A DNA stretch of 57,748 bases from a virus, in the IMG/VR virus record IMGVR_UViG_3300042332_001032, positions 1 to 57,748 of that record. One strand, 5' to 3'. Of this stretch, positions 1 to 57,748 are shown in pieces. Made by a program: the position numbers and the translations under genes. The notes below the pieces were generated by a model, which worked only from the letters and a program-made list of their open reading frames with translations, was not told where the DNA came from and made no database searches. Each line of letters begins with the position of its first letter. The first letter of the stretch is position 1.

Positions 1-183
1 TACTTGGTATCAGCATCCAAAAGGAAGACGGAGTCTTCCTTGCTACGCCACTGAAAGGTCTTTTCATTATTTGTTTTAGATCTATTTCCATTAAAGGGGT
101 TATTTTTATTTATCTTTTTTATTTATCTTTTGCAAGGCTGAGTTTCATCTGAGTGACTAAAGATCACTCAGCTTTCACTCAGT
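1..183 (-). mobile_element. TnpB-derived short element E1, left-end part, cut by window start
   Basis: On the minus strand this reads from the left terminus (ACTGAGTGAAAGC) through a hairpin (CTGAGTGA / TCACTCAG with a CTTTAG-type loop) into the central region shared with E2, E6, E7 and E8, then runs off the window. The preceding bases are TTCAGG, the same flank as E7, E8 and E9. The right end with the guide-RNA region lies outside the window. The central hairpin AAGGAAGAC / GTCTTCCTT is present. Confidence 0.85.
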
Positions 184-274
184 CCTGAAATGTAAGACCT
201 GGAGGTATAATAAGATCGCTTATATCTTTTGCATCTTTTTCAGTGTACGGTCTTCTATTGAATATATTTGACAT
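179..274 (-). pseudogene. Small tail-region gene truncated by element E1
   Basis: The start codon overlaps the stop of the upstream gene (TAATG), so the two are translationally coupled. Only 31 residues are read before the frame enters E1, where the element supplies the TGA stop (ending Phe-Gln-Asp-stop, the same ending as the gene cut by E8). The product ends shortly after a Pro-Pro-Gly segment. The lost 3' part would lie beyond the element. Function unknown. Confidence 0.55.
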
Positions 275-2598: not shown

Positions 2599-2737
2599 GT
2601 GAACTACCGAACGACTAAAGATCGTTCGGCTTCAGAACATAAATGTTCTTTCTTTTTAGACACTTCATCGCTTGTGCTTTTAAATGAATTTAAAAGTCTT
2701 ATTTTAGCTCCATGTCTGTAATCGGCAGTTCCTGCCG
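2599..2737 (-). ncRNA. Putative solo omega-RNA scaffold of E2
   Basis: Homologous to the last 150 bases of the two full tnpB elements: hairpin CGGCAG-GAA-CTGCCG, then AGAACA / TGTTCT, then the terminal hairpin. In IS605-type TnpB systems the guide RNA scaffold occupies this position. The bases just beyond the terminus (ATAAAGAAATAGTATA) would be the guide segment. Confidence 0.55.
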
Positions 2738-2898
2738 ATGAAACTCCGAAGTAGTTTCTTTGTGCCTTTGATTTACTTGGTATCAGCATCCAAAAGGAAG
2801 ACGGAGTCTTCCTTGCTACGCCACTGAAAGGTCTTTTTATTATTTGTTTTAGATCTATTTCCATTGAAGGGGTTATTTTTATTTATCTTTTTTATTTA
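2599..2898 (-). mobile_element. TnpB-derived short element E2 lacking its left end
   Basis: The right terminus (hairpin CCGAACGA / TCGTTCGG, then TAGTTCAC) is intact at 2599. The central region is intact, but the left hairpin is missing: the element stops in the A/T-rich GATAAATAAAAA tract at the 3' end of the gene at 2892-3686. It has an open frame of 86 codons starting MEIDLKQ that ends with a tnpB-like tail (SAGTADYRHGA). That frame is broken in sister copies, so conservation is more likely for RNA than for protein. Confidence 0.85.
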
Positions 2899-3725: not shown

Positions 3726-5132
3726 TCACATCGTTTCCTTAAAAAACATTCCTGTAGTAGCAGCTCGAGAAAACCCGCTTTGACAAACAGGGGATATTAT
3801 TAAAGCTTTTTGTTCATTATACGGAGCAATCAGTATTTTACCGTTTTCGAGTACAGTGCCGCCAGCGTATTTAAAACTCGCACTACCGATAGTGGTTGAA
3901 AACAGTGTCGAATCTGATATAGGATCGTAGAACGCTACCTTCTGATAACCAAAAGGTGGCATACATACTCTACCATCTGGCATTAATATACCTGATCTAT
4001 ATTTTGATGGCCCTGCTGGATAAACACCACCTGCAACTGTAAAGCTATCTGTACCTGGGTTGTATATATAAGCTGAATTAGCGTTATACGGTACAAAAAA
4101 TACTCTACCATCAGATAGCATTACAGAGCCGCTAAAATCCTGATTACCGCTAAACGTAGTACCTAAACCAGCAAACACCAAATTGTACGGCGGATCTACA
4201 TAAACTTTTAATGCGAATAGTGAATTGTGTGGTGTTAAAAGTACATACGAACCATCAAGAGAGAGCTGTCCGCTATAGAAACTTTTCTTGTTTGGTGTTG
4301 TAAATTCCGCTCCCATTATTTCTTGCACAGTATCTGTAACAGGGTTGTATATAAGTGTACCGTCATTACGCTCATATGGTATAAGCATTATATTACCATC
4401 TTTTAAAAGAACACCTCCGTTATACGGTTGCGATAGACCTGGTTTTGATAAATTTATACTAGATCTAAAAAGATTATTCGTACCCGGAGTCCATATGTAT
4501 ATATAATTGTTTATACCAGGTAATAAGCATACTCTACCATCTGGTAACAAGCAACCATCTGCAAATCCCGATGAAAGCGGCACATCTGTAAATGAAAATG
4601 AATCTGTTACAGGGTCATATATTACCCCGTAAGTATACGAATGTGGTACAAAGAGAACTCTTCCGTCCCCTAATGTAACTACCCCGCAATGAAATGTAGT
4701 TGCTAGAGAAAACGATACTGTAAATCTCTGTAGATATGTTTCTGACCCTATAATAGGTGGGTTTTGATAAACTACACTTTGTATGTAGCGTAAAAAGTCA
4801 CTAGATTTTTTAACCTGCTGAGAAACATTATCTGGAGCAATTTCTTTATACAGCTGTTTATTATTGCTACCTATATGCCACAACGGACAGTATATTTCTG
4901 ATACATTAACTATGCCGCTTGTCGGGGCAACCGCTATACCACCGGTTACCTGACCGGTTAAAGTCGAATATACTCCACCACTACTCACGCTAGCAGCTTT
5001 ATTTTTAACAGTACACGCTGCATTATCTAGAGTATTGAAATTATCATTTATAGTGTTTAATGAATCTCCTATAATTTCATTCTCATCGATTAATTTAATT
5101 GTAATATCGCAATTTTTCATAACACTATACAA
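3726..5132 (-). CDS. Kelch-like beta-propeller tail protein 1
   Basis: 468 residues. The N-terminus carries the shared motif IIGDSLNTINDNFNTLD (about residues 19-35) followed by a Cys. From about residue 120 on there are about seven repeats of roughly 45 residues built on L-x-DGRV-x-x-x-PY...IY-P-x-TD, as expected for one kelch/Galactose-oxidase-like propeller. It is the last of three paralogues in tandem. It overlaps the upstream paralogue by 8 bases, indicating coupling. Likely a virion adhesin or fibre attachment. The function is inferred from the fold and neighbours. Confidence 0.75.
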   Translation of the reverse strand: MYSVMKNCDITIKLIDENEIIGDSLNTINDNFNTLDNAACTVKNKAASVSSGGVYSTLTGQVTGGIAVAPTSGIVNVSEIYCPLWHIGSNNKQLYKEIAPDNVSQQVKKSSDFLRYIQSVVYQNPPIIGSETYLQRFTVSFSLATTFHCGVVTLGDGRVLFVPHSYTYGVIYDPVTDSFSFTDVPLSSGFADGCLLPDGRVCLLPGINNYIYIWTPGTNNLFRSSINLSKPGLSQPYNGGVLLKDGNIMLIPYERNDGTLIYNPVTDTVQEIMGAEFTTPNKKSFYSGQLSLDGSYVLLTPHNSLFALKVYVDPPYNLVFAGLGTTFSGNQDFSGSVMLSDGRVFFVPYNANSAYIYNPGTDSFTVAGGVYPAGPSKYRSGILMPDGRVCMPPFGYQKVAFYDPISDSTLFSTTIGSASFKYAGGTVLENGKILIAPYNEQKALIISPVCQSGFSRAATTGMFFKETM

Positions 5133-6501
5133 ATAGACCCGTTAAAAAATTCATCGAAAAATTACTCTGATGAAAGTATTTTAAATATTTAGCATTTTTA
5201 TTATCTCTTGGTGCAAAAAATACATCCCCGTTTTTAAGTACTATACCGTTTGAGTGAGACACTCCAGATCCGAGCTTGAGACCTGTATCGTGTAGTGCGT
5301 CTTCACGTGGATCGTAAATTTTTATAGTATTACCGTTAATTGGAGTTATGAGTACTCTACCGTCTGTTAATAAACAACCACCACAGCTCGTACCACCTAT
5401 AGGGTATACTCCAGAAGGTATAGTAAATGTATTAGTACTCGGATCGTAAATAGCTGCTTTACTGTTATTTGAAGGTACGCAAAATATTCTGCCATCGTCA
5501 AGCATTACACCACCTGAAAATCCACCACCATTAGGGAAGCTATATGTTAAAACGTAACTCAGTAACCTCGTATTAAAGTTGTATAAAGCGGCTGATGCAT
5601 GTCCTTGTGGCACTAGAAAAACATTACCGTTAGGTAATAGCACTCCGTCAGAAAACGAATTAACAACACCAGGATATATATTCGGAGACGTTGTATTTGC
5701 TCCTGTTTTAATATTGTAAGTTCTATCTATTAAACTATTATAAGGTACGTGGTATATGCTACCATTCGGTAATAATACCCCTTTTGAAAATCCTTTAGGT
5801 GTTAAATAATTACCAGCACTTAATTCCGTAGATAAGGTATGAGTACCTGGAGTATAAACTCTTGCGTAAATTGTATTATATGGAACAAAAAACACTCTAC
5901 CGTCAGGTAGTAGTATGGTACCGGAAAACGCTTCTATAACGTTTGGGTAACCGATACCAGCTGGAATTGGTGGCTTGTAAGCTGTACCCGTTTTTATATC
6001 GTATATAAGAGCATCTGTTAGTAAATTAGGACCGAGAAATATTCTATCATCTGGTAACAGCATACTACCGCAGAATTTATCAGTTTGGTTACCAAAATCG
6101 TAAGGCAGAGTTATTAAGCTCTCACAACCCGGTAAAGGTATATTACGCTCTGTTGTATCGCTTACGTGCTTTAAAAGATTGTTAAATTCTGCATACTGAG
6201 TAGATATATTATTACCTGGAATTTCATCATAAAGCATCTTACTAGTAACACCTGTCTGCCATTTAGGGCAAGTGTTTAAATCAATAGTAAACGTACCAGT
6301 TCCGTTACTAGATGCAGGTTGTAACGTAATTCCGTTACCAGGTATAACTCTACTGACTTTATTACCCAGCGTACCACTAAAAAAAGCAGATACGGTACAT
6401 AATGCTGTATCAAGGTTTAAAAAATTATCATTTATAACTTTACGTGACTCTGACAAGCACTGTTTACTATTTATCTGGGTTGTTAAATTACAAGAACTCA
6501 T
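5125..6501 (-). CDS. Kelch-like beta-propeller tail protein 2
   Basis: 458 residues, paralogous to its two neighbours. The N-terminal docking-like motif is SRKVINDNFLNLDTALC. The propeller repeats carry LPDGRVFFVPYN and IYDPSTNTFT-type blades. It shares one base with the start of 3726-5132's partner on one side and abuts 6501-7865 (overlap of one base, TAATG-type). The tandem paralogues differ most in the loops between blades, as expected for receptor-facing proteins (inference). Confidence 0.75.
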   Translation of the reverse strand: MSSCNLTTQINSKQCLSESRKVINDNFLNLDTALCTVSAFFSGTLGNKVSRVIPGNGITLQPASSNGTGTFTIDLNTCPKWQTGVTSKMLYDEIPGNNISTQYAEFNNLLKHVSDTTERNIPLPGCESLITLPYDFGNQTDKFCGSMLLPDDRIFLGPNLLTDALIYDIKTGTAYKPPIPAGIGYPNVIEAFSGTILLPDGRVFFVPYNTIYARVYTPGTHTLSTELSAGNYLTPKGFSKGVLLPNGSIYHVPYNSLIDRTYNIKTGANTTSPNIYPGVVNSFSDGVLLPNGNVFLVPQGHASAALYNFNTRLLSYVLTYSFPNGGGFSGGVMLDDGRIFCVPSNNSKAAIYDPSTNTFTIPSGVYPIGGTSCGGCLLTDGRVLITPINGNTIKIYDPREDALHDTGLKLGSGVSHSNGIVLKNGDVFFAPRDNKNAKYLKYFHQSNFSMNFLTGLFV

Positions 6502-8626: not shown

Positions 8627-8797
8627 ATTATTTTATTATTTAAGGTGAGTGGCTGAGAAATCTAGGCGATCTTTAGTCGTCTAGATGAATCAGCTAAAAT
8701 ATTTTTATAAATCTTAATATTTTTTGTAAAAAATACGTTCGTCTGAGATAAGTAATAATAGATGATCGGAAAAGTACAAGAACTAAAAGAGAACGAA

Positions 8798-10024
8798 ATG
8801 CACAAAGCATTTAAGTTCCGTTTGCTTCCTACAAAGGAGCAGGAAGTTCTTTTGGCAAAGCATTTTGGCTGTTCAAGATTCATCTATAATCATTTTTTAG
8901 CTGAAAAACAGAAGCATTATTCGGAAAACAAAGAGACACTAAAATTCAATGTTTGTCAAAATATGCTTATAAAGCAGAAAAAGGACGAAGGTTATGATTG
9001 GCTTAAAGAAGTTAATTCTCAATGTTTAGTAGCGACATTGGTCAATTTAGAGACAGCATATACAAACTTTTTCAAGAAAAAATCTAAATTCCCTCGTTTT
9101 AAATCAAAAAAGAACAAAAATAGTTTCAATATTCCTCAACATGTTTCTTTGAAAGAACGTAACGTAGTTCAAATTCCAAAGTTCAAAGAAGGAATCAAAT
9201 TTGTTAAGCACAGAGAACTAAAAGGAGTTATTAAGAGCGCAACTGTTTCAAAGAATCCTTCTGGAAAATATTATATCTCTTTTCTTTGTGTTATAGAAAA
9301 ACCAACTAAACACAAAAAGACTGGAAAGAGCATCGGAATTGATTTAGGATTAAAGGATTTCATTATTACTTCTGAGGGACAAAGGTACTGTAATCCTAAG
9401 TTCACTAAAAAGTACGAGGTTAAGTTAGCAAGAAAACAAAGAATTTTAAGCAGAAAGGTAAAAGAATCGAAAGGAAGAGACAAAGCTCGTTTGAGCGTTG
9501 CAAAGGTACATGAGAAGATAACCAATTCTCGGAACGATATGCAACATAAAGTCTCCTCCAAGTTAGTAAGAGACTATGATCTGATTGCAATAGAAGACCT
9601 GAACGTGAAAGGAATGGTTAAGAACCATTGCTTAGCTAAGGCAATATCAGATGTAGCTTGGTCAAGCTTTGTGACCAAATTAAAATACAAAGCAGAATGG
9701 AACGGAAAAGAAGTGATTGTAATAGATCGTTTCTACCCGTCTTCCAAAACATGTAGTTGCTGTGATCACATCAAAGAGTCGCTTAGTCTCGATGAAAGGA
9801 CTTGGACTTGTTCTAAATGCAACACAATACATGACAGAGATGTTAATGCTTCGAAAAACATTTTAAGAAGAGCATTAGCAATTCAATCGGCAGGAACTGT
9901 CGATAACAGGAATGGAGCTAAGGTAAGACCAAAGGAGATCTCAAAGGTTTCTAGAGGCACTGGCGTTGAAGTTCTTAAAAAGAAGAATGGACGTAAGTAC
10001 ATTCTGAAGCCAGTAGGTCTTTAG
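8798..10024 (+). CDS. tnpB: TnpB RNA-guided nuclease, copy 1
   Basis: 408 residues from the MHKAFKFRL start, the same length as ISDra2 TnpB; the frame is open 12 codons further upstream. RuvC-like catalytic residues are present: Asp182 (GIDLGLKDF), Glu266 (IAIEDLN) and Asp348 (HDRDVNASKN). A zinc ribbon of CSCC...CSKC lies between the second and third motifs. It therefore looks catalytically intact. Known TnpB proteins cut DNA guided by an omega RNA from the element's right end. It is close to copy 2 but clearly diverged, so the two are not a recent duplication. Confidence 0.93.
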   Translation: MHKAFKFRLLPTKEQEVLLAKHFGCSRFIYNHFLAEKQKHYSENKETLKFNVCQNMLIKQKKDEGYDWLKEVNSQCLVATLVNLETAYTNFFKKKSKFPRFKSKKNKNSFNIPQHVSLKERNVVQIPKFKEGIKFVKHRELKGVIKSATVSKNPSGKYYISFLCVIEKPTKHKKTGKSIGIDLGLKDFIITSEGQRYCNPKFTKKYEVKLARKQRILSRKVKESKGRDKARLSVAKVHEKITNSRNDMQHKVSSKLVRDYDLIAIEDLNVKGMVKNHCLAKAISDVAWSSFVTKLKYKAEWNGKEVIVIDRFYPSSKTCSCCDHIKESLSLDERTWTCSKCNTIHDRDVNASKNILRRALAIQSAGTVDNRNGAKVRPKEISKVSRGTGVEVLKKKNGRKYILKPVGL

Positions 10025-10042
10025 TGTCTACAGGTAGTTCAC
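9888..10042 (+). ncRNA. Putative omega RNA of E3
   Basis: Overlaps the last 45 codons of tnpB and the right end, the expected place for an omega RNA. It folds as CGGCAG / CTGTCG, then AGAATG / CATTCT (9984-10005), then the terminal hairpin. The next 16 or so bases, GTAAAGCTAAGATTAA, would be the guide. Confidence 0.6.
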
Positions 10043-12222
10043 GTAAAGCTAAGATTAACTTCATAGAACGCGTTTTTATGCGCTAAGCTGGTAAATGTAT
10101 TAGTGTTTGCTATTACCGTGTATGTTTGATTAGGTTGTAATAAGAACTTCGGTATTACGTGCTGTACGACATTCGCGTTTGATGCTGTGCATATATACGA
10201 ACCATTAAATTGAGGTGCTTGTTGCGGAGCTGTTGCTGTAGTGACAGCTGTTCCTTGATAGTAAACCGTAAATGCTTCTAATACACCTTGAGTTTGTACG
10301 GATTCACCATTTATTTTTAATGTTAAAACTGAAGGGCAATTTTTTGTAGTAATGTTAGCAGTCGCGGAGCCGAACATTGTTGTTATAGGGGATGTGCAAC
10401 TATCAGACATTTTATAACGTGCTTTAAGTTTATCGCTACTTATCACCCATTCAGATAGATCTGAATCTTGACCGAATGTAGTAGACCATGATACAGACGG
10501 CTTATCACAAATTACCTTATTTGCAAACGGTTCAACACACGTTGGATCGAAATAACTAAATAACGAGCAATAATTTTCCCACAAATAATTTATATTTCTA
10601 TTAACAACAATAGAGGTAACAGGTTCGTTTTGTCCAATAAAAAGCTCTTCTTTTTTATACTTTGGCGGTTTATACCCTTTACAATACGTACCATCGTATT
10701 GTAAGGTAGATCTGAATATCTCTATATTATCCCACATACGCTGAAAGGATTTATTATACACCCAATCCTGTATATACTCATCTTTATCGATCAATACCTG
10801 TTCGAGAGACCAAAAATTAGACGGTAGAGAGCTCTTTGTTGCTCTTTGTTTTAAAATGTGTACGTATTTGATAATTTTATCTCCGAATGTTACTAATGTG
10901 CTTCTAAACTCATCCTGATATATGCTGTTTATGTTTTCTACGCATTTTTTATCTTTAAATAAATAATCAAATTCAATACCAGTTCTTACGTATTTTCTTA
11001 CAAATGTATTATATGTTACATATATTATTTGCTTATTAAAGTTCGTGTTAATTTTTTTAGGTATCTGTGTTGTATCAATAGCGTATTTAAAAAGAAAATT
11101 ACCTGTGTAATCATACACTCTTATCGAGTTACTAGTTAATACGTGTACCTGATCAATTTCGTCAATAGCTACACTCAGCGGTGATACTAAATCACTGTCA
11201 ACAATGGTTGTTATCCAATTACCAGCAGGAGTGTAGCATTTAACACAATTGTTACCTGTATCTGTAACCCAGACGTTATCGTTGTTATCAATATGTATAT
11301 CATTAGGCTTTAAAAATTTATTTGTAGAAGCAATTGTACCGACTCCTCCCCATAAATTAAGCAACGTCCATGGTTTATTTGCAGTTACATCAAAACTATA
11401 TACAGCTACCTTACATTGCACGTTATCTAGCACGTATATATGATTAGCGCTATTTATCGCGATACCGCATATACTAGAAAACCGTACCACATTATCTATC
11501 GTGTATCGTACCCCTAATTGCGTAGACGTGTAATTAGATGAAAGCACGTAAAATGTCGTAGAGCGAGAAACGTAAAGTATATTGTCTCTAGAAGCAATAC
11601 CAGTATAAAAACATTTTTGTGTCGAGGAGCAATTACCGATAGGTTCGTAATAATCATCGATTAAAGGTATATTTACATTCCATATACCATCATCACACCG
11701 CGAACTATCATTACCGTCACAAGGTTCGGAGTTCCATATCTTTGCGTACTCGTTATTATCCCTTGTCATCTTCCATGTTATAGGTAATTCAGCTTTTGCT
11801 GTCGAACGCATCTCCCAATCCCAATCTGTACAGTATTTACCGAAACAGGATTTCTTAGTACACTCATGTCCTTGAAACGATAAGCATGGATCTATATCTG
11901 TACCAACACACTCTAAATCTTTCCACTTTACAACTCGAGGATTTGTTGCACTGCAATCAGTTTCACTCCAGTATATAGTTTTACAATTAAATTCGTTTTC
12001 AGGTAACGGCCCTAGCCAACCGTAGTACTCAATATAATCATAGAGCTGACAGTTTCTACTATCCAATTGCAAAAGACCGTTATGCATTACGCGTAACGAG
12101 TTATTGATATTATCTTCAACAGCAATTTCGTTAGGCATTATAAGACCAGTCTTATTACATGAAACTGGTAATTCCATACCTTTAGGAACACATCTTGTAA
12201 CGTCTATTAAATTGTTAATCAT
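10039..12222 (-). CDS. Large NHL-type beta-propeller adhesin
   Basis: 727 residues. The N-terminus has a degenerate form of the shared docking motif (NINNSLRVMHNGLLQLD followed by Cys). A Cys/Trp-rich segment (residues 55-200) precedes NHL-like propeller repeats (for example ANHIYVLDNVQCKVAVYS and NDNVWVTDTGNNCVKCYTP, residues 205-400). The C-terminal 200 residues look like a beta-rich binding domain. Its stop codon comes from the right terminus of element E3, so the native C-terminus may have been shortened. It overlaps the next gene by 8 bases. Confidence 0.7.
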   Translation of the reverse strand: MINNLIDVTRCVPKGMELPVSCNKTGLIMPNEIAVEDNINNSLRVMHNGLLQLDSRNCQLYDYIEYYGWLGPLPENEFNCKTIYWSETDCSATNPRVVKWKDLECVGTDIDPCLSFQGHECTKKSCFGKYCTDWDWEMRSTAKAELPITWKMTRDNNEYAKIWNSEPCDGNDSSRCDDGIWNVNIPLIDDYYEPIGNCSSTQKCFYTGIASRDNILYVSRSTTFYVLSSNYTSTQLGVRYTIDNVVRFSSICGIAINSANHIYVLDNVQCKVAVYSFDVTANKPWTLLNLWGGVGTIASTNKFLKPNDIHIDNNDNVWVTDTGNNCVKCYTPAGNWITTIVDSDLVSPLSVAIDEIDQVHVLTSNSIRVYDYTGNFLFKYAIDTTQIPKKINTNFNKQIIYVTYNTFVRKYVRTGIEFDYLFKDKKCVENINSIYQDEFRSTLVTFGDKIIKYVHILKQRATKSSLPSNFWSLEQVLIDKDEYIQDWVYNKSFQRMWDNIEIFRSTLQYDGTYCKGYKPPKYKKEELFIGQNEPVTSIVVNRNINYLWENYCSLFSYFDPTCVEPFANKVICDKPSVSWSTTFGQDSDLSEWVISSDKLKARYKMSDSCTSPITTMFGSATANITTKNCPSVLTLKINGESVQTQGVLEAFTVYYQGTAVTTATAPQQAPQFNGSYICTASNANVVQHVIPKFLLQPNQTYTVIANTNTFTSLAHKNAFYEVNLSFT

Positions 12223-13809: not shown

Positions 13810-15633
13810 TTATTCTAAATCTATATTAGTACCATTTTCTAGTTGTATACATGTAACAAAGTCTTCTAGCGCAAGACCTGCACACAAAACCGGTAGTGGC
13901 TGTAAACACGTACAGCAAGATAATGTACCGAAACCGAAAATATCCGGTCTACCAGAAGATAGATTCTGTACTAAGTTATTCCACATCGTAAACTTATCCA
14001 TGTTTACATATGCGTTATAGTACGGGACAGGGCCGCCGCCAGTTTTATAATTACCCATACCCTGAACGCTTAATAGATAATAACCATCAGTTAAACGAAC
14101 CGCCATAGAGTAAGAGGTACTCGTAGACATGCTAACCGCTGATACACCAGGTGCCAGGTTCCTTGCTACAAATGGAACAGGTCCGTACCCATAACTACCA
14201 CCGTCTCCTCTGTAACAAAGTATTCGTTTGTTTGTAAGAAGTACATAATGGAACTCGTTACTAGCACCGTCAACAAAATACTCTCCAGCTCCTAAAGGAA
14301 GACCTGGTAAAGTTGCTGGCGTATTAGAACGAGCAGTTAACCAACTAAAACTACCTAGATGTCTTGTACTGGTCGTTAACCGATATATCTTAGTAGGATC
14401 TGACTTAAGACATACAAAGCAAGAGTTTCCTGGATCTCCGATTTGAGCAAATAATATATCGCTATCATCTAAGTTTAAAATTTGTCTTGCTTCGTAATCA
14501 GCACTCGTATACGTGTCACTTCTCAATGTAACATGCCACACCGTGTCATCGTATTTGGCAACAATGCAGTCAGAGTTATGTGCTTGGTTAATTGCTACTA
14601 CTCTACTTACATTTGTTAATATAACCCGTGGCGGGTTATATCTGTTTCTCAAATCTAACTCAACGAGATCTCCGCTGGTTAATAAGACGACTTGGCAGTT
14701 TGTCCATGCATAAGATGACGGCATGAATATGTCTTTAAATGCATGTAAATTATCACTTATCCAAGAATAATGAAACGGCCCTCTCGATTTAATAGGATCT
14801 GTAGTATCTTCGGTATAGAATACGTTACCGTTCCGGAAAATAGCTGCCTGGTTATGGTTACCGGCACACATTCTTAAAATACCACTTAACCCGTAATACG
14901 ATATACCACCAAAAGAAGTGGTATAGGCGTAAGTAGTATAGCTTGAACCTACAATAGGGGCGTAATATGAGTCCTTATATTCAAGTGGTGCGTACATCAC
15001 ATCTCTATTAACGAAATTAAATGTATTCCATCTATACCCACCTTCTCCTTGTAACGTAAATCTATCGAGAAGATCCTGTCTTTTCGGTACATCTCCAGGA
15101 CAGCAAATCCTCGAACTTAAAGAGTTAACTTTATTAGCAAGGCCGCAATAAGTGCTCTCGAGACTTTTAAAGTTATTGATAATCTTTTGATAAGAATCTC
15201 CTATGTACTCATCTGTGCTTATACCATCGGTGTAAAAGCATTGCGGAGTAGTTACAGGTGTTAACATTGTCTTACCAATAGAGTGGTTAACGACAATAGC
15301 CGATAAAGATTTTATACTTGTTACAAGAGAACATGAAAGGTCGCTAAGTGTATTAAAACTTGAATTTAATGGTACCCTCGTATCCGTAACACATGTATTA
15401 GCAGGTGGTATACTTACTAGGTCACAATTGTTTATATTAGAATTAGATATACTACATTTCGGAGTTTCAGGTATTTTAAGTTTAGCTAGGGTAGCGCTTA
15501 AGGATTCGATTGTACCTAATATTTCACATGCATTAACATCTAGAATTTGAAAATTATCGTTAATCTTTCTTAAAGATGTGCCAAGATACTCGTAATCAGC
15601 GATTACTTGTGTTGATCTGTTACATGCGTCCAT
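13810..15633 (-). CDS. Multi-module tail protein with three INDNF-type motifs
   Basis: 607 residues. The N-terminal 180 residues hold three copies of the docking-like motif: YLGTSLRKINDNFQILD, VPLNSSFNTLSDLSCSL and YIGDSYQKIINNFKSLE, each followed by Cys and a short coiled-coil-like stretch. The remainder (residues 200-580) is beta-rich with RCC1/propeller-like features (for example SRVVAINQAHNSDCIVAKYDDTVWHV). It is the most upstream gene of the minus-strand adhesin operon and may be the hub that positions the others (inference). Confidence 0.65.
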   Translation of the reverse strand: MDACNRSTQVIADYEYLGTSLRKINDNFQILDVNACEILGTIESLSATLAKLKIPETPKCSISNSNINNCDLVSIPPANTCVTDTRVPLNSSFNTLSDLSCSLVTSIKSLSAIVVNHSIGKTMLTPVTTPQCFYTDGISTDEYIGDSYQKIINNFKSLESTYCGLANKVNSLSSRICCPGDVPKRQDLLDRFTLQGEGGYRWNTFNFVNRDVMYAPLEYKDSYYAPIVGSSYTTYAYTTSFGGISYYGLSGILRMCAGNHNQAAIFRNGNVFYTEDTTDPIKSRGPFHYSWISDNLHAFKDIFMPSSYAWTNCQVVLLTSGDLVELDLRNRYNPPRVILTNVSRVVAINQAHNSDCIVAKYDDTVWHVTLRSDTYTSADYEARQILNLDDSDILFAQIGDPGNSCFVCLKSDPTKIYRLTTSTRHLGSFSWLTARSNTPATLPGLPLGAGEYFVDGASNEFHYVLLTNKRILCYRGDGGSYGYGPVPFVARNLAPGVSAVSMSTSTSYSMAVRLTDGYYLLSVQGMGNYKTGGGPVPYYNAYVNMDKFTMWNNLVQNLSSGRPDIFGFGTLSCCTCLQPLPVLCAGLALEDFVTCIQLENGTNIDLE

Positions 15634-22340: not shown

Positions 22341-22354
22341 TATTTATATAAATA
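22341..22354. promoter_or_regulatory. Palindromic late-promoter-like box (TATTTATATAAATA)
   Basis: Contains TATAAATA on both strands, in the gap between 22299 and 22437. The plus-strand box is followed after AAGG by micro-element E4. The same TTTATATAAATAAGG context precedes element E5. Confidence 0.5.
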
Positions 22355-22357
22355 AGG

Positions 22358-22400
22358 ACTGAGTGAAAACCGAAGGATCTTTAGTCGTTCGGTAGTTCAC
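22358..22400 (+). mobile_element. 43-bp minimal element E4 (left end fused to right end)
   Basis: Starts ACTGAGTGAAAAC like the left ends, then has one hairpin CCGAAGGA / TCGTTCGG with the usual CTTTAG loop, then TAGTTCAC exactly as in the right ends. Everything between the two terminal hairpins is gone, as after recombination between the similar end hairpins. Flanked on the left by ATAAGG like E5. Confidence 0.8.
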
Positions 22401-23265: not shown

Positions 23266-23283
23266 ATAAAATAAAAATTCAAT

Positions 23284-23634
23284 CTAATCGAATGATGACA
23301 TTCTAAATGAATCTAAAGCAAAATTAACTTTAGAATTCTTAGATTTGAATTTTCTAAAAACTGTTTCTTTCGGAACAGAAACTCTATATTTCACTTTAAA
23401 GTTTTTTAACCAAGAATGTAACTCTTTCCAATCTTTGACTTCTGGTACTTCGGTTTGCTTCCATAGCTCCTCTAAGTACGTTTTCGAAGGCAATTCTGGA
23501 TAGAATTGTTTATTTTTGGTTATTATCAACCTAAAACCTCTTTGTGCTATTTCGGCACTAGAAGCTAAAGGATCTGGTGAATCTTTATGTAGAATATTTC
23601 CTATCGTAGAAGAATAAAATTGTTGATTTTTCAT
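23284..23634 (-). CDS. Cassette gene product, copy 2 (unknown function)
   Basis: 116 residues, near-identical to the product at 712-1062. Purifying selection on both is suggested by the small number of differences, most of them silent or conservative, though recent duplication would also explain this. No recognised domain. The late promoter box at 23641-23648 is only six bases from the ATG. Confidence 0.75.
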   Translation of the reverse strand: MKNQQFYSSTIGNILHKDSPDPLASSAEIAQRGFRLIITKNKQFYPELPSKTYLEELWKQTEVPEVKDWKELHSWLKNFKVKYRVSVPKETVFRKFKSKNSKVNFALDSFRMSSFD

Positions 23635-23648: not shown

Positions 23649-23689
23649 CGAATTTGTATTCAAATTAACATTCAGAAAATAATAACCTC

Positions 23690-24601
23690 TTATACAGGTG
23701 TTGTTGTAGGTGTCGGTGTTGGCGTAGGAGTCTCTGTCGGAGTCGGCGTCTCTGTCGGAGTCGGCGTCTCTGTAGGAGTCTGAGTTGGCGTCTCTGTAGG
23801 AGTCTGAGTTGGCGTCTCTGTCGGTGTCGGAGTTGGCGTCTCTGTAGGTGTCGGTGTTGGCGTCTCTGTCGGTGTCGGAGTTGGCGTCTCTGTAGGTGTC
23901 GGTGTTGGCGTAGGAGTCTCTGTAGGAGTCTCTGTCAGTGTCGGAGTTGGCGTCTCTGTAGGAGTTACTGTAGGAGTTGGTGTAATGGAAGGAGTTGATG
24001 TGAGTGTCGGTGACTGAGAAGGATATGCAGAAATTGGAGGTAATTTAAATATATCTCTACTGTACCCTAATATTAAAGAACCTGTATTAAAATAAAATAA
24101 TGTATATCCTTTATTATCTGATGCTGATAACGAAATACTTCCCCCCACATACACGCTATCACTAGAGGTAACGACTATATTATTGCTTACAGGGGAAACT
24201 GATATCATACACTGAGAAATATCAGTCGGTACAAAGGTATTAGTTACAGATACTACAGCAAAAGAGTCAAATTGTATGTCGAAGAAATTAACAGATGTAT
24301 CTACTATTACATAATCCCTATAACGTAACGCGCGTACAGTCTCATTATCTGTATTAACATATATATACGAAGGATCGTCTTGAGGTACACGCATATCTAC
24401 CCTGAAATAGATATCAGAATAACTAAAAATCTCTGCAGCTATATTTTTACCGTAATCAGATAATAACCTCCAGTCTCCCTCTGGTATTGTTGTATCAAAA
24501 CCACTATCTGATCTCTGTAAATCTACAGATAGAGCAGAAACAAAGGTTGAATATTTTGCTAAAAACTGCTTTACGCGTGTGTTTTTTTCTGTAGCTCCCA
24601 T
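23690..24601 (-). CDS. Structural protein with long Thr/Pro/Glu-repeat tail
   Basis: 303 residues. The first 195 residues are beta-rich (for example [20 protein letters not shown]) and may form a head- or neck-attached domain. The last 100 residues are almost only TETPTP-type repeats, likely an extended stalk or linker. The repeats are encoded by near-identical 18-bp DNA units, prone to length change. Position between gp4-like and portal-region genes suggests a virion decoration or fibre protein. No family recognised. Confidence 0.6.
23698..23976 (-). repeat. 18-bp tandem coding repeats (TETPTP units)
   Basis: Roughly 15 tandem units of the type GGAGTCGGCGTCTCTGTC on the plus strand, with few substitutions, encoding the Thr-Glu-Thr-Pro-Thr-Pro tail on the minus strand. 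Confidence 0.85.
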
Positions 24602-27987: not shown

Positions 27988-27995
27988 TATAAATA
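27988..27995 (+). promoter_or_regulatory. Late-promoter-like TATAAATA adjacent to element E5
   Basis: Exact TATAAATA on the plus strand directly followed by AGG and the left end of E5; it would read into the tnpB element. The same TTTATATAAATAAGG string flanks E4. Confidence 0.45.
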
Positions 27996-28148
27996 AGGAC
28001 TGAGTGAAAACCCATAAGTCTTTAGCCTATGGGATGAAACTCAGCCAAAATATTTTTAAATTATTTTTCATTTTTACTCTAAAAAGTAAACCGTCTGAGA
28101 TAAGTATAATAGATGATTGGAAAAGGACAAGAACTAAAAGAGAACGAA

Positions 28149-29372
28149 ATGCACAAGGCATTTAAGTTCCGTTTGCTTCCTACAAAGGAGCAAGAAGTTC
28201 TTCTGGCCAAGCACTTTGGTTGCGTAAGGTTCATTTATAATCATTTCCTCAGTGAAAAACAAAAGCACTTTTTAGAAAATAAAACCACACCGAACTTCAA
28301 TCAATGTGCAGGAAATTTGGTAGCAAAGAAAAAAGAAGAAGGTTATGAATGGTTAAAGGAAGTTAATTCTCAAGTTCTTATATCAACTTTAATGAACTTG
28401 GAGACAGCTTATGGTAACTTTTTTAGAAAAAAATCAAAGTTCCCTAAATTCAAATCCAAAAAGAATAAAAACTCTTTTCAAATACCTCAACATGTTTCTT
28501 TGAAAGAGAAGAACGTGGTTCAAATTCCAAAGTTCAAAGAAGGTTTGAAATTCATTAAGCACAGAGAACTCAAAGGAACAATTAAATCGGCTACTATCTC
28601 CAAGAATCCTACAGGTAAATACTACATTTCATTTCTTTGTGTTGTAGAAAAACCAACTAAGCACAAAAAGACAGGGAAAAGTATTGGAATTGATTTAGGG
28701 TTAAAGGATTTTATCATTACTTCTGAAGGACAAAGATATTGTAATCCAAAGTTTTTAAAGAAGTACGAGGTTAAGTTAGCAAGAAAACAAAGAATTTTAA
28801 GCAGAAAAGAAAAAGGATCAAAAGGAAGAGACAAAGCTCGTTTGAGCGTCGCTAATGTACATGAGAAGATAACCAATTCTCGTAACGATATGCAACATAA
28901 AGTTTCCTCCAAGTTAGTAAGAGACTATGATCTGATTGCAATAGAAAACCTGAACGTGAAAGGAATGGTTAAGAACCATAAACTATCTAAGGCAATATCA
29001 GACGTAGCATGGTCAAGCTTTGTGACCAAATTAAAGTACAAAGCACAATGGAACGGAAAAGAAGTGATTGTAATAGATCGCTTTTATCCTTCCAGTAAAA
29101 CATGTAGTTGCTGTGATCATATCAAAGAAAGCCTTTCATTAGATGAAAGAACCTGGACTTGTTCTAAATGCAACACAATACATGATAGAGATGTTAATGC
29201 TTCAAAGAATATTTTGCGTAGAGCATTAGCAATTCAATCGGCAGGAACTGTCGATAACAGGAATGGAGCTAAGGTAAGACCAGAAGTTGTTTCTAAAGCA
29301 ACTAAAGGCACTGGCGATGAAGTTCTTAAAAAGAAGGGTAGAAAATATGCCCTGAAGCCGAACGATCTTTAG
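28149..29372 (+). CDS. tnpB: TnpB RNA-guided nuclease, copy 2
   Basis: 407 residues from MHKAFKFRL (frame open 12 codons upstream). RuvC residues Asp182 (GIDLGLKDF), Glu266 (IAIENLN) and Asp348 (HDRDVNASKN) and the CSCC/CSKC zinc ribbon are intact. The N-terminal half differs from copy 1 at many positions while the C-terminal half is almost identical, and the short elements share its right end. It is the most likely trans-acting partner of the solo omega RNAs (inference). Confidence 0.93.
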   Translation: MHKAFKFRLLPTKEQEVLLAKHFGCVRFIYNHFLSEKQKHFLENKTTPNFNQCAGNLVAKKKEEGYEWLKEVNSQVLISTLMNLETAYGNFFRKKSKFPKFKSKKNKNSFQIPQHVSLKEKNVVQIPKFKEGLKFIKHRELKGTIKSATISKNPTGKYYISFLCVVEKPTKHKKTGKSIGIDLGLKDFIITSEGQRYCNPKFLKKYEVKLARKQRILSRKEKGSKGRDKARLSVANVHEKITNSRNDMQHKVSSKLVRDYDLIAIENLNVKGMVKNHKLSKAISDVAWSSFVTKLKYKAQWNGKEVIVIDRFYPSSKTCSCCDHIKESLSLDERTWTCSKCNTIHDRDVNASKNILRRALAIQSAGTVDNRNGAKVRPEVVSKATKGTGDEVLKKKGRKYALKPNDL

Positions 29373-29388
29373 TCGTTCGGTAGTTCAC
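29239..29388 (+). ncRNA. Putative omega RNA of E5
   Basis: Hairpins CGGCAG / CTGTCG, AGGG-TA / TA-CCCT (29335-29353) and the terminal CCGAACGA / TCGTTCGG. The bases after the terminus, TGTTGTTTTGCTAGGT, would be the guide and contain the phage's early -35 motif TTGCTAG. Confidence 0.6.
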
Positions 29389-42899: not shown

Positions 42900-43847
42900 A
42901 TGGGATTAGAGTACACTAAACAACCACAATTTTTTGAAAATAGCGTTACCGTACAAGGGGCACTATCTAGCGTACAGCTACAAGCTAATGCGTTTATAAG
43001 CAGTACAGCTAGAGTTACGGAAATATCAGCTGTTTCATTATCAGGTACTTTTTACGGAGACGGTACAAAGCTCGAGGGTGTATTTAGTAATCAAAGCACT
43101 ATAAACGCTTTTCTAACAAGTCTCTCATCAAAGCCGTTTTACCCGTCATTGTCTGTAACATCATTTTCAGCAAATAATGTATTTGCTGTTAGCGGTATAT
43201 TCATGAATATAGCTGCAACATCTCTTTCAGGTACGTTTTACGGAGATGGTACAAAGCTAGCTGGTGTATATTCCTCTCAAGGTGCAATTAATACATTTGT
43301 TGTAAACAGCAGCGCAGATTCTAAACTAAACTCTCTTTCAGCAAAATTTATAAACACAGAGTATGTAGGTAATCCGCTATTTAGAACACTCTCCTCATCT
43401 GTAATAACAACAAATACCTTAAACAGCGCAACAACGTTCAGTGGAGTGTATTACGGAGATGGTAGAAACCTACAAGGTATCTTTGCAAATCAAAATGTTA
43501 TAAACTCAACAGTTGCTCAACTCACAGGAGACGCTGTCGTGAGAACGCTCTCAGCAGTAAGTGGCACGTTTATAAACATCTCTGCAACTTCTCTTTCAGG
43601 TACATTTTATGGTGATGGGTCAAATCTACTAGGTGTTACAACTGGTGGTAGAAGATTTTTTTATGAAACTATAGGTAACGATACATACACCTATTCAGGC
43701 TCTACACCATTTTACACAACTTCACCAAGTGCTTCGGCGTGGAAGATTGTTAAAGTGCAATATAGCTTAGATGGAGGAGTGGTAGGGCTAAGTGCAAGAA
43801 ACAACGTACCATGGACAAATAGAGCAACTCTTATATATTACCCATAA
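42900..43847 (+). CDS. Tail-fibre-like repeat protein
   Basis: 315 residues. At least four imperfect repeats of about 75 residues each contain SLSGTFYGDGTKLxGV followed by a S/NQxxIN segment, a pattern common in phage fibre shafts. The C-terminal 60 residues differ and may form the tip. The stop codon directly abuts the right terminus of E6, so the end of the gene may have been trimmed by the insertion. Confidence 0.7.
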   Translation: MGLEYTKQPQFFENSVTVQGALSSVQLQANAFISSTARVTEISAVSLSGTFYGDGTKLEGVFSNQSTINAFLTSLSSKPFYPSLSVTSFSANNVFAVSGIFMNIAATSLSGTFYGDGTKLAGVYSSQGAINTFVVNSSADSKLNSLSAKFINTEYVGNPLFRTLSSSVITTNTLNSATTFSGVYYGDGRNLQGIFANQNVINSTVAQLTGDAVVRTLSAVSGTFINISATSLSGTFYGDGSNLLGVTTGGRRFFYETIGNDTYTYSGSTPFYTTSPSASAWKIVKVQYSLDGGVVGLSARNNVPWTNRATLIYYP

Positions 43848-43986
43848 GTGAACTACCGAGCGACTAAAGATCGTTTGGCTTCAGAACATAAATGTTCTTT
43901 CTTTTTAGACACTTCATAGCCGTTGCTTTTAAATTGCTTTAAAAGTCTTATGTCAGCTCCATGCCTGTAATCGGCAGTTCCTGCCG
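43848..43986 (-). ncRNA. Putative solo omega-RNA scaffold of E6
   Basis: CGGCAG-GAA-CTGCCG, AGAACA / TGTTCT and a terminal hairpin with one G-T change (CGCTCGG / CCAAACG side) that keeps pairing. The bases beyond, TTATGGGTAATATATA, would be the guide. Confidence 0.55.
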
Positions 43987-44192
43987 ATGAACATCCATAG
44001 TATGTTCTTTTTGCCTTTGATATACTTGGTATCAGCATCCAAAAGGAAGACGAAGTCTTCCTTGCTACGCCACTGAAAGGTCTTTTCATTATTTGTTTTA
44101 GATCTATTTCCATTGAAGGGGTTATTTTTATTTATCTTTTGCAAGGCTGAGTTTCATCTGAGTGACTAAAGATCACTCAGCTTTCACTCAGT
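43848..44192 (-). mobile_element. Complete TnpB-derived short element E6 (345 bp)
   Basis: Minus-strand copy with both ends: left hairpin CTGAGTGA / TCACTCAG after flank ATTAGG, central hairpin AAGGAAGAC / GTCTTCCTT, and right hairpin followed by TAGTTCAC. It has an 86-codon frame like E2. It lies between a fibre gene and the ferritin-like gene. Confidence 0.9.
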
Positions 44193-44211
44193 CCTAATAA
44201 ATAAAATTACC

Positions 44212-46112: not shown

Positions 46113-46127
46113 ATTTTATATTTCAGG

Positions 46128-46479
46128 ACTGAGTGAAAGCTGAGTGATCTCTAGTCACTCAGATGAAACTCAGCCTTGCAAAAGATAAATAAAAAAGATA
46201 AATAAAAATAACCCCTTCAATGGAAATAGATATTTTAAATTATATAAAAAGACCTTTCAGTGGCGTAGCTAGATTAATTTCTATAGGATGCTGATACCAA
46301 GCAAATCAAAGGCAAAAAGAACATACTATGGATGTTCATCGGCAGGAACTGTCGATTACAGACATGGAGCTGACATAAGACTTTTGAATTCATTTAAAAG
46401 CAACGGCTATGAAGTGTCTAAAAAGAAAGAACATTTATGTTCTGGAAGCCGAACGATCTTTAGTCGTTCGGTAGTTCAC
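46128..46479 (+). mobile_element. Complete TnpB-derived short element E7 (352 bp)
   Basis: Flank TTCAGG, left hairpin, central region, right hairpin and TAGTTCAC. The central AAGGAAGAC hairpin is replaced by a different sequence (AGATTAATTTCT), shared with E9. The 86-codon frame of E2/E6 is broken here, supporting an RNA rather than protein function. Its right end lies eight bases from the -35 of the ligase promoter. Confidence 0.9.
46340..46479 (+). ncRNA. Putative solo omega-RNA scaffold of E7
   Basis: CGGCAG / CTGTCG (the G-T variant as in full tnpB), AGAACA / TGTTCT, terminal hairpin. The following bases AAAAATACTTGCTAGTTC would be the guide and include the early promoter -35 motif. Confidence 0.55.
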
Positions 46480-51246: not shown

Positions 51247-51324
51247 GCCTGTGAAGCTTAAGTAGTTATAAGCACCTGTTTCATAAACTGGAGATAGTGG
51301 GAGCATGCCCCACGACAGGCACCA
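51247..51324 (+). tRNA. tRNA with anticodon CAT, divergent D- and T-loops
   Basis: Acceptor GCCTGTG / GACAGGC (six pairs) with encoded ACCA, D-stem GCTT / AAGC with loop AAGTAGTTAT, anticodon stem CCTGT / ACTGG with loop TTCATAA (CAT), T-stem GTGGG / CCCAC with loop AGCATGC. The D-loop lacks the GG pair and the T-loop lacks TTC, so the usual loop-loop contact is lost on both sides. Met or, with TilS, Ile2 (reading ATA) are the options. Confidence 0.8.
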
Positions 51325-54977: not shown

Positions 54978-55187
54978 ATGCTTGAAATAAAAAACGGAAA
55001 CGAGACAATTACAATATCCAGCCAATCCGATTGTATTGCAATTGTGCACAGGGTTTATAGCCCGTACAAGGATTTTGCTGAAACAACAGCGTTTGCAATC
55101 GACAAAGAAGACTTGTTGGACATATTAAGACCGTATGCAAGATTAGTTAAAAACGAGCGCAATGAGGTATCTACATTTCAGGACTGA
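54978..55187 (+). CDS. Small protein whose 3' end is cut by element E8
   Basis: 69 residues. The frame enters E8 and stops at the element's TGA, giving the ending STFQD shared with other insertions. Beta-rich N-terminal part (LEIKNGNETITISSQSDCIAIVH). The native C-terminus was probably longer; function unknown. Confidence 0.55.
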   Translation: MLEIKNGNETITISSQSDCIAIVHRVYSPYKDFAETTAFAIDKEDLLDILRPYARLVKNERNEVSTFQD

Positions 55188-55542
55188 GTGAAAGCCGAAG
55201 GATCTTTAGTCACTCAGATGAAACTCAGCCTTGCAAAAGATAAATAAAAAAGATAATTTAAAATAACCCCTTTAATGGAAATAGATCTAAAACAAAACAA
55301 CAAAAAGACCTTTCAGTGGCGTAGCAAGGAAGACTTCGTCTTCCTTTTGGATGCTGATACCAAGTATATCAAAGGCACAAACTAGTTACTATGGAACTAG
55401 ATCGGCAGGAACTGCCGATTACAGGCATGGAGCTGACATAAGACTATTAAAGCAATTTAAAAGCACAAGCGATGAAGTGTCTAAAAAGAAAGAACATTTA
55501 TGTTCTAGAAGCCGAACGATCTTTAGTCGTTCGGTAGTTCAC
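55183..55542 (+). mobile_element. Complete TnpB-derived short element E8 (360 bp)
   Basis: Flank TTCAGG; the left arm is chimeric: its first half reads GCCGAAGGATC like a right end while the second half is left-end-like, so the left hairpin is mismatched. The right end is complete. Central hairpin AAGGAAGAC / GTCTTCCTT is present. The 86-codon frame is disrupted. The next gene's ATG starts at the first base after the right terminus. Confidence 0.9.
55403..55542 (+). ncRNA. Putative solo omega-RNA scaffold of E8
   Basis: CGGCAG-GAA-CTGCCG, AGAACA-TTTA-TGTTCT (55491-55506), terminal hairpin CCGAACGA / TCGTTCGG. The following ATGACAACAACTGAAT would be the guide. Confidence 0.55.
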
Positions 55543-57404: not shown

Positions 57405-57602
57405 ATGAAAAAGAAACCAGAATTAGAATTGTTCAGCCCGACTCAAGAGGGAATCATTGTTCCTCTGTCAAAATACCTAAAACAAATGTCCGAGTTCGCT
57501 AAAACCGAATGGCCGGGCATCAACATTACGGAATCAAAAATCAAGGAAATCTGGAAGTTAGTAGCTTCAAATATTTACATTTCAGGGCTGAGTGAAAGCT
57601 GA
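57405..57602 (+). pseudogene. Small gene truncated by element E9
   Basis: 65 codons, the last few (GLSES) read from E9. Starts MKKKPELELFSPTQEGIIVP and has a helical middle. The original 3' end would lie beyond the element and the window. Function unknown. Confidence 0.5.
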
Positions 57603-57748
57603 GTGATCTTTAGTCACTCAGCTTTCACTCAGCCTTGCAAAAGATAAATAAAAAAGATAAATAAAAATAACCCCTTTAATGGAAATAGATCTAAAACAAA
57701 TAATAAAAAGACCTTTCAGTGGCGTAGCTAGATTAATTTCTATAGGAT
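57587..57748 (+). mobile_element. TnpB-derived short element E9, left part, cut by window end
   Basis: Flank TTCAGG, starts GCTGAGTGAAAGC. The left hairpin is a near-perfect 20-bp inverted repeat because the return arm reads CTTTCACTCAG instead of ATGAAACTCAG. The central region is of the E7 type (AGATTAATTTCT). Right end outside the window. Confidence 0.85.

Follow-up and report, generated by a model that had tools for sequence, protein, structure and literature searches.

Short tnpB-less IS200/IS605-type elements with a conserved omega-RNA scaffold in a T4-like phage contig: candidates for guide RNAs used in trans by phage TnpB

The window analyzed here, i.e., the whole 57,748-nt stretch of an IMG/VR virus record, is a T4-like phage contig that carries a T4-type portal gene and nine related IS200/IS605-type elements, two with an intact tnpB (F1 and F2) and seven short (a to g) (Table 1). 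The relationship of seven short copies to two full tnpB elements had been claimed in a first-pass annotation made from the sequence and is confirmed here. The same annotation located element c correctly at 43848-44192, with an extent that falls a few bases short when judged by the target motif. It also held that the short copies keep the omega-RNA region, which is true of only 4/7 (b, c, d and e); elements a and f run off the contig before the scaffold is reached and g is reduced to a 45-nt fusion of the two ends. Element c is antisense to both flanking genes. The gene beside it at 44212-44580 matches PHROG 858, annotated as a starvation-inducible transcriptional regulator. A promoter scan for c found none above chance. 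The left-end sequence TATAAATA was considered as a T4-like late promoter and rejected, since its enrichment in the window lacks significance (shuffles were as high in 11 of 100 cases).

Table 1. IS200/IS605-type elements of the window and the predicted parts of element c.
Feature	Position	Strand	Description
Element c	43848-44200	-	tnpB-less IS605-type, complete; left end 44200, right end 43848
Predicted target-adjacent motif of c	44201-44205	-	TTTAT at left end
HA hairpin of c	44043-44063	-	AAGGAAGAC/GTCTTCCTT, within conserved 5' module
H0 hairpin of c	43989-44007	-	GAACAT-ACTATGG-ATGTTC; stem changes compensated across short copies; not present in tnpB copies
Omega-RNA scaffold of c	43848-43989	-	P1, P2a/P2b, P3, P4, terminal hairpin P5
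Predicted 16-nt guide of c	43832-43847	-	TTATGGGTAATATATA; position inferred from reRNA anatomy (PMC8612924)
Element a	1-191	-	Short; contig start cuts element before scaffold
Element b	2599-2898	-	Short; without left-end hairpin; scaffold 2599-2740 intact
Element d	46120-46479	+	Short; scaffold 46337-46479; reading frame broken
Element e	55175-55542	+	Short; scaffold 55400-55542; break at the end of the reading frame
Element f	57579-57748	+	Short; contig end cuts element before scaffold
Element g	22348-22400	+	Minimal relic: 45-nt left-end/right-end fusion, without scaffold
Full tnpB element F1	8645-10042	+	Left boundary approximate; scaffold 9885-10042
tnpB of F1	8762-10024	+	420 aa; Pfam PF01385, PF07282, PF12323
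Full tnpB element F2	27989-29388	+	Scaffold 29236-29388
tnpB of F2	28113-29372	+	419 aa; ISDra2 TnpB structures matched at E 1e-73; RuvC D-E-D motifs

The TnpB proteins of F1 and F2 carry the Pfam domains OrfB_IS605, Cas12f1-like_TNB and HTH. Three RuvC acidic motifs are kept in F2, as aligned to a TnpB-like solved chain, and the same D-E-D motifs are readable in F1 and in a third TnpB, encoded on the related contig G002 (IMGVR 3300042332_001447, 95.8 kb); the zinc-finger TNB domain and RuvC are found together in all three. The G002 protein is 61% identical to that of F2, and the first 52 nt of its element are 100% identical to c. In addition, the least diverged short copy, at 4965-5338 of contig G007 (3300042332_001711, 33.5 kb), matches the C-terminus of the G002 TnpB with a score of 157 against a shuffled mean of 31. 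Because of this 52-nt identity and the C-terminus nearly kept in the G007 copy, we consider the third tnpB lineage, that of G002, rather than F1 or F2, the likely parent of the short copies and their likeliest partner. No Y1 TnpA gene was found in the short elements or in any of the 15 records; the host may be a supplier of TnpA.

Relatives were found by scaffold-pattern and tnpB searches of viral contigs. More short copies lie on G002 and G007, both from one sample, and one lies in a more distant phage, G011. Covariance-model hits give four scaffold-bearing copies without tnpB in the window, four on G002 (two cut by a contig end) and three on G007 (one cut by a contig end), though some of these may be the two ends of one copy or shared assembly overlaps. 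The last part of G002 has an exact 127-mer in common with the beginning of G007, whose own far end is identical to positions 2598-2724 of the window. Contig breaks inside these repeats with shared 127-mers are the signature of a single assembly graph. In a 203-kb relative, G006, the regions matched by the three contigs are for the most part different. Thus, the short copies and the three TnpBs probably reside in one phage, with the window, G002 and G007 being pieces of one large genome. A further proposed link, between f and the copy at the end of G007 through an interrupted gene, was discarded as the flanking proteins gave no match. In named phage genomes there was no DNA match to c. Elements with tnpB and a single scaffold were seen in other phages and in bacteria, e.g., Sphingobacterium and Crocosphaera. 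Since the majority of the other tnpB-bearing phages examined by covariance-model search lack short copies, such copies are not generally required. Two side observations were made among the relatives. Directly upstream, the short copy of G011 is preceded by another left-end-type hairpin, like that of F1/G005 (11265-11330; L165), perhaps a nested insertion. In another phage (G016, 1022-1148; L206), a decayed omega-RNA scaffold stands with no adjacent tnpB (47.6 bits).

The scaffold of c scores 134.8 bits (E 5.7e-32) against a covariance model whose training set includes c. It consists of a 5' hairpin (P1), a long-range helix (P2a and P2b) that encloses hairpin P3 and has arms separated by ~50-70 nt in the sequences, hairpin P4, which is optional, and the terminal P5. 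Across 49 distinct scaffolds, aligned from sequence without fitting to structure, 92.7% of base-pair cells are paired compared with 71.7% when shuffled. Two-sided changes occur at 20 of 27 pairs, in 258 cells against 82.7 shuffled, and 0/500 shuffles reach any of the observed values, a count that is not equivalent to a phylogeny-corrected probability. When the partner is slid by 1-3 columns, pairing falls to 29%-40%. P1, P2 and P5 were independently predicted by RNAalifold, and the same structure recurs in the distant Sphingobacterium and Crocosphaera tnpB elements. What is conserved is a structured RNA made of the tnpB 3' end and the right end and stopping at the element boundary, as is characteristic of omega RNAs. 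Rfam searches at permissive thresholds returned no relevant RNA family for the elements. With the relatives added, conservation of the structure is unambiguous in the alignments, and covariation of the kind expected of an RNA under selection, as had been proposed from the window, is borne out.

Within the short copies alone (12 sequences, 52 pairs), 95.9% of cells are paired and two-sided changes affect 17 pairs compared with 7.2 ± 1.6 in shuffles, located in H0, HA, P1 (in G011), P3 and P5. The best covariation is found in H0, directly 5' of the scaffold, which the first-pass annotation missed; its three stem versions, GAACAT/ATGTTC, GAAACT/AGTTTC and CTAGTT/AACTAG, are each paired at 6/6 positions. 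That annotation had named three covarying hairpins. All three examples are weak within the short copies; for P4 and the terminal stem, the covariation quoted is with F1 and F2. P4 (AGAACA/TGTTCT) does not vary among the short copies of the window and is constant among all short copies except G007 4965-5338. P1 shows only a G-C/G-U change within the short copies of the window, and the terminal stem P5 of c has 2 mismatched pairs of 8. HA takes the form of different yet paired stems in other copies, with some versions 7-8 nt shorter. Together, HA and H0 form a conserved 5' module that is carried by the short copies and absent from the tnpB copies. In the G011 comparison its core is conserved like the scaffold core (89% vs 87%), and viral contig and Rfam searches found no known relative. 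As a possible source of the module, tnpB coding DNA gave only a weak match, to the G002 tnpB (a score reached by 7 of 300 shuffles), and no match as protein.

One could ask whether these copies are kept for a small protein, since b and c could encode 86 aa and the frame is open in five of the nine complete copies (b and c among them). The other four have a frame interrupted by indels (7-8 nt and 1 nt); they are d and e, as had been noticed before, and the copies at G007 1-359 and on G011. These indels lie mostly in or beside hairpins, the scaffold is retained in copies with a broken frame and a Pfam search gave no match. We regard a coding role as most improbable. Maintenance of an omega-RNA-type structure in the short copies, under selection for pairing, is supported by their sequences.

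Selection is not the only process that can preserve complementarity. Hairpin arms can stay complementary without it through template switching, which counts against a reading by selection, and the process appears to act in this family. In f (57579-57640) and in G002 14787-14850 (L158) the inner arm of the left-end hairpin is flipped relative to the other copies, which suggests template-switch flips. The arms of H0 likewise change blockwise around a nearly constant loop. It could be argued from these patterns that pairing is kept at the DNA level, by template-switch palindrome correction and gene conversion between copies, rather than by selection on an RNA. However, P2a/P2b is long-range and encloses another hairpin, yet shows strong family-wide covariation, so template switching is probably not the whole explanation. 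A process confined to the DNA also fits poorly with the recurrence of the structure in the distant bacterial tnpB elements, and we consider a purely DNA-level origin of the pairing quite unlikely.

The transposon ends are conserved as well. Imperfect terminal palindromes are present at both element ends, and at 10/12 insertion sites the left end lies directly after TTTAY (TTTAC or TTTAT), a motif with a genome frequency of 0.6% (nominal P 6e-21, an optimistic value as the boundary was set after inspection, though the effect is large). In IS608, guide-cleavage pairing links hairpin-foot tetranucleotides to the cleavage sites. We take the same type of pairing to apply here, in which case the hairpin-foot tetranucleotides AAAG (left) and GAAG (right) presumably predict TTAC and TCAC. 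What is observed is TTAC or TTAT for the majority of left ends and TCAC for the right ends, with AAAA and TTAT in F2 and g.

Such ends, the shared target motif and the multiple copies would also fit ordinary MITE- or PATE-like deletion derivatives that a foreign TnpA moves, in which the scaffold is passive, carried along through its overlap with the right end and not used as a guide RNA. Internally deleted IS605 elements with a preserved right end do occur, in Sphingobacterium and in Halanaerobium (PMC7290912), and no promoter was seen for c. A passive scaffold would, on the other hand, be difficult to reconcile with compensatory changes in H0, HA, P1 and P2, stems that are not transposition signals. 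Moreover, b keeps its scaffold even though its left-end hairpin is lost, a loss that probably renders it immobile. We therefore judge that passive derivatives are an unlikely, if still serious, explanation of the family.

The account we favor, with reasonable but limited confidence, is that the short elements are non-autonomous IS200/IS605 derivatives whose guide RNAs are used in trans by phage TnpB and which spread by homing. The DNA directly shows that the ends and the target motif are conserved, that the RNA structure is kept through compensatory changes and that the TnpB motifs are intact; transcription, binding in trans and homing are steps that we infer. The source would be an IS1341-like, tnpA-less tnpB element that lost tnpB and kept both transposon ends and the whole scaffold. 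Transcripts across the right end would carry ~16 nt of 3' flank as a guide, which would differ with each insertion. A phage TnpB could then bind the short-copy RNAs in trans, most likely the G002 TnpB and less surely that of F1 or F2; such use is plausible. The target of each ribonucleoprotein would be its own site in the unoccupied state (TTTAY plus guide), such as the one in a co-infecting relative that lacks the insertion; after cleavage, recombination repair from the occupied copy would insert the element at the cut. Homing of this kind could let short elements persist and spread without a tnpB or tnpA of their own, with jumps to new sites requiring TnpA from elsewhere. Counted against the account are the antisense position of c, its lack of a clear promoter and its two P5 mismatches, as well as the absence of short copies from most other tnpB-bearing phages examined and, outside the G006 site described below, of guide targets beyond chance in related phages. 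A more far-reaching version, on which we place only tentative weight, is that one large phage houses a dispersed multi-guide system: some ten omega-RNA elements that lack tnpB and have an added 5' module dedicated to them would depend in trans on phage TnpBs and home without a transposase, cutting and converting the empty sites of co-infecting relatives.

One candidate empty site was found. In G006, near 22.5 kb, TTTAT is followed by ACAGGTGGATGGTAA, and the short copy at G007 33395 has ACAGGTGGTTGGTGA directly after it. The next gene is 76.5% identical between the two places, which are thus syntenic, and the uninterrupted G006 gene ends in GGAATTTAT followed by ACAGGTGGATGGTAA, with the same last four residues, TGGW. 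TTTAT stands at the predicted position and the first 16 guide bases of the G007 33395 copy match at 14 positions, a level (≤2 mismatches) also reached by 9/200 shuffled guides; because of the synteny, the match is more than a chance hit. We conclude from this comparison, in which the left flank of the G007 copy is off the contig, that the G006 site is probably the empty site of that copy. Apart from it, guide targets beyond chance were not found in related phages, nor were exact empty sites for the other insertions, whose flanks are too diverged. Together, the covariation, the target motif and the probable empty site make the hypothesis directly testable.

Guide RNAs without an adjacent nuclease gene have precedents. 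Stand-alone IscB omega-RNA loci, which Altae-Tran and co-workers are said to have described in 2021, are alike in this respect and differ in belonging to IscB and in having an unrelated scaffold. In ISDra2, the RNA bound by TnpB is derived from the right end, its final ~16 nt being supplied by the 3' flank, and TnpB cleaves target DNA beside a motif (PMC8612924). The present elements resemble it in the TnpB family, the RuvC motifs, the RNA from the tnpB 3' end and right end, the guide from the 3' flank (here predicted) and a target motif equal to the left-end flank (PMC8612924). Unlike in ISDra2, where one element gives both RNA and TnpB, the short copies hold the RNA part only, and the motif is TTTAY rather than TTGAT. 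A PATE-like IS605 derivative of Halanaerobium hydrogeniformans likewise keeps the left end, the last part of tnpB and the full right end; it is a single bacterial copy in which RNA structure was not analyzed, as opposed to the phage family described here, which is multicopy, shows compensatory changes and has an additional conserved 5' module (PMC7290912). At TldR loci TnpB is nuclease-dead, and a frameshifted tldR has been suggested as a possible source of guide RNA in trans (PMC13418256). The idea of a broken tnpB-type locus giving a guide in trans is shared, as are phage-borne relatives, whereas TldR regulates flagellin and its gene is frameshifted, and here the TnpBs keep their catalytic motifs and the short copies have tnpB deleted (PMC13418256).

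That IS605 derivatives can keep the tnpB end and the right end, i.e., the guide-RNA end, is already known. New is an amplified phage family with compensatory evolution and an RNA module of its own; no paper on such a family was found in the literature searched, with key subscription papers outside the search. If the RNAs are used in trans, a single nuclease gene would serve many guides, each set by its insertion site. This would show how guide RNAs can separate from a nuclease gene, a step towards a CRISPR-like organization, and in what way phages may pass DNA from one competing genome to another by homing.

Elsewhere in the window, the 300-nt stretches 694-993 and 23266-23565 are 99% identical, each inside a 116-aa gene, and are a recent gene duplication or conversion. 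A weak Rfam tRNA match (33.9 bits) lies at 51247-51321, where ARAGORN makes no call, and tandem repeats with a 12-nt period occupy 23681-24028 within the ORF at 23690-24601.
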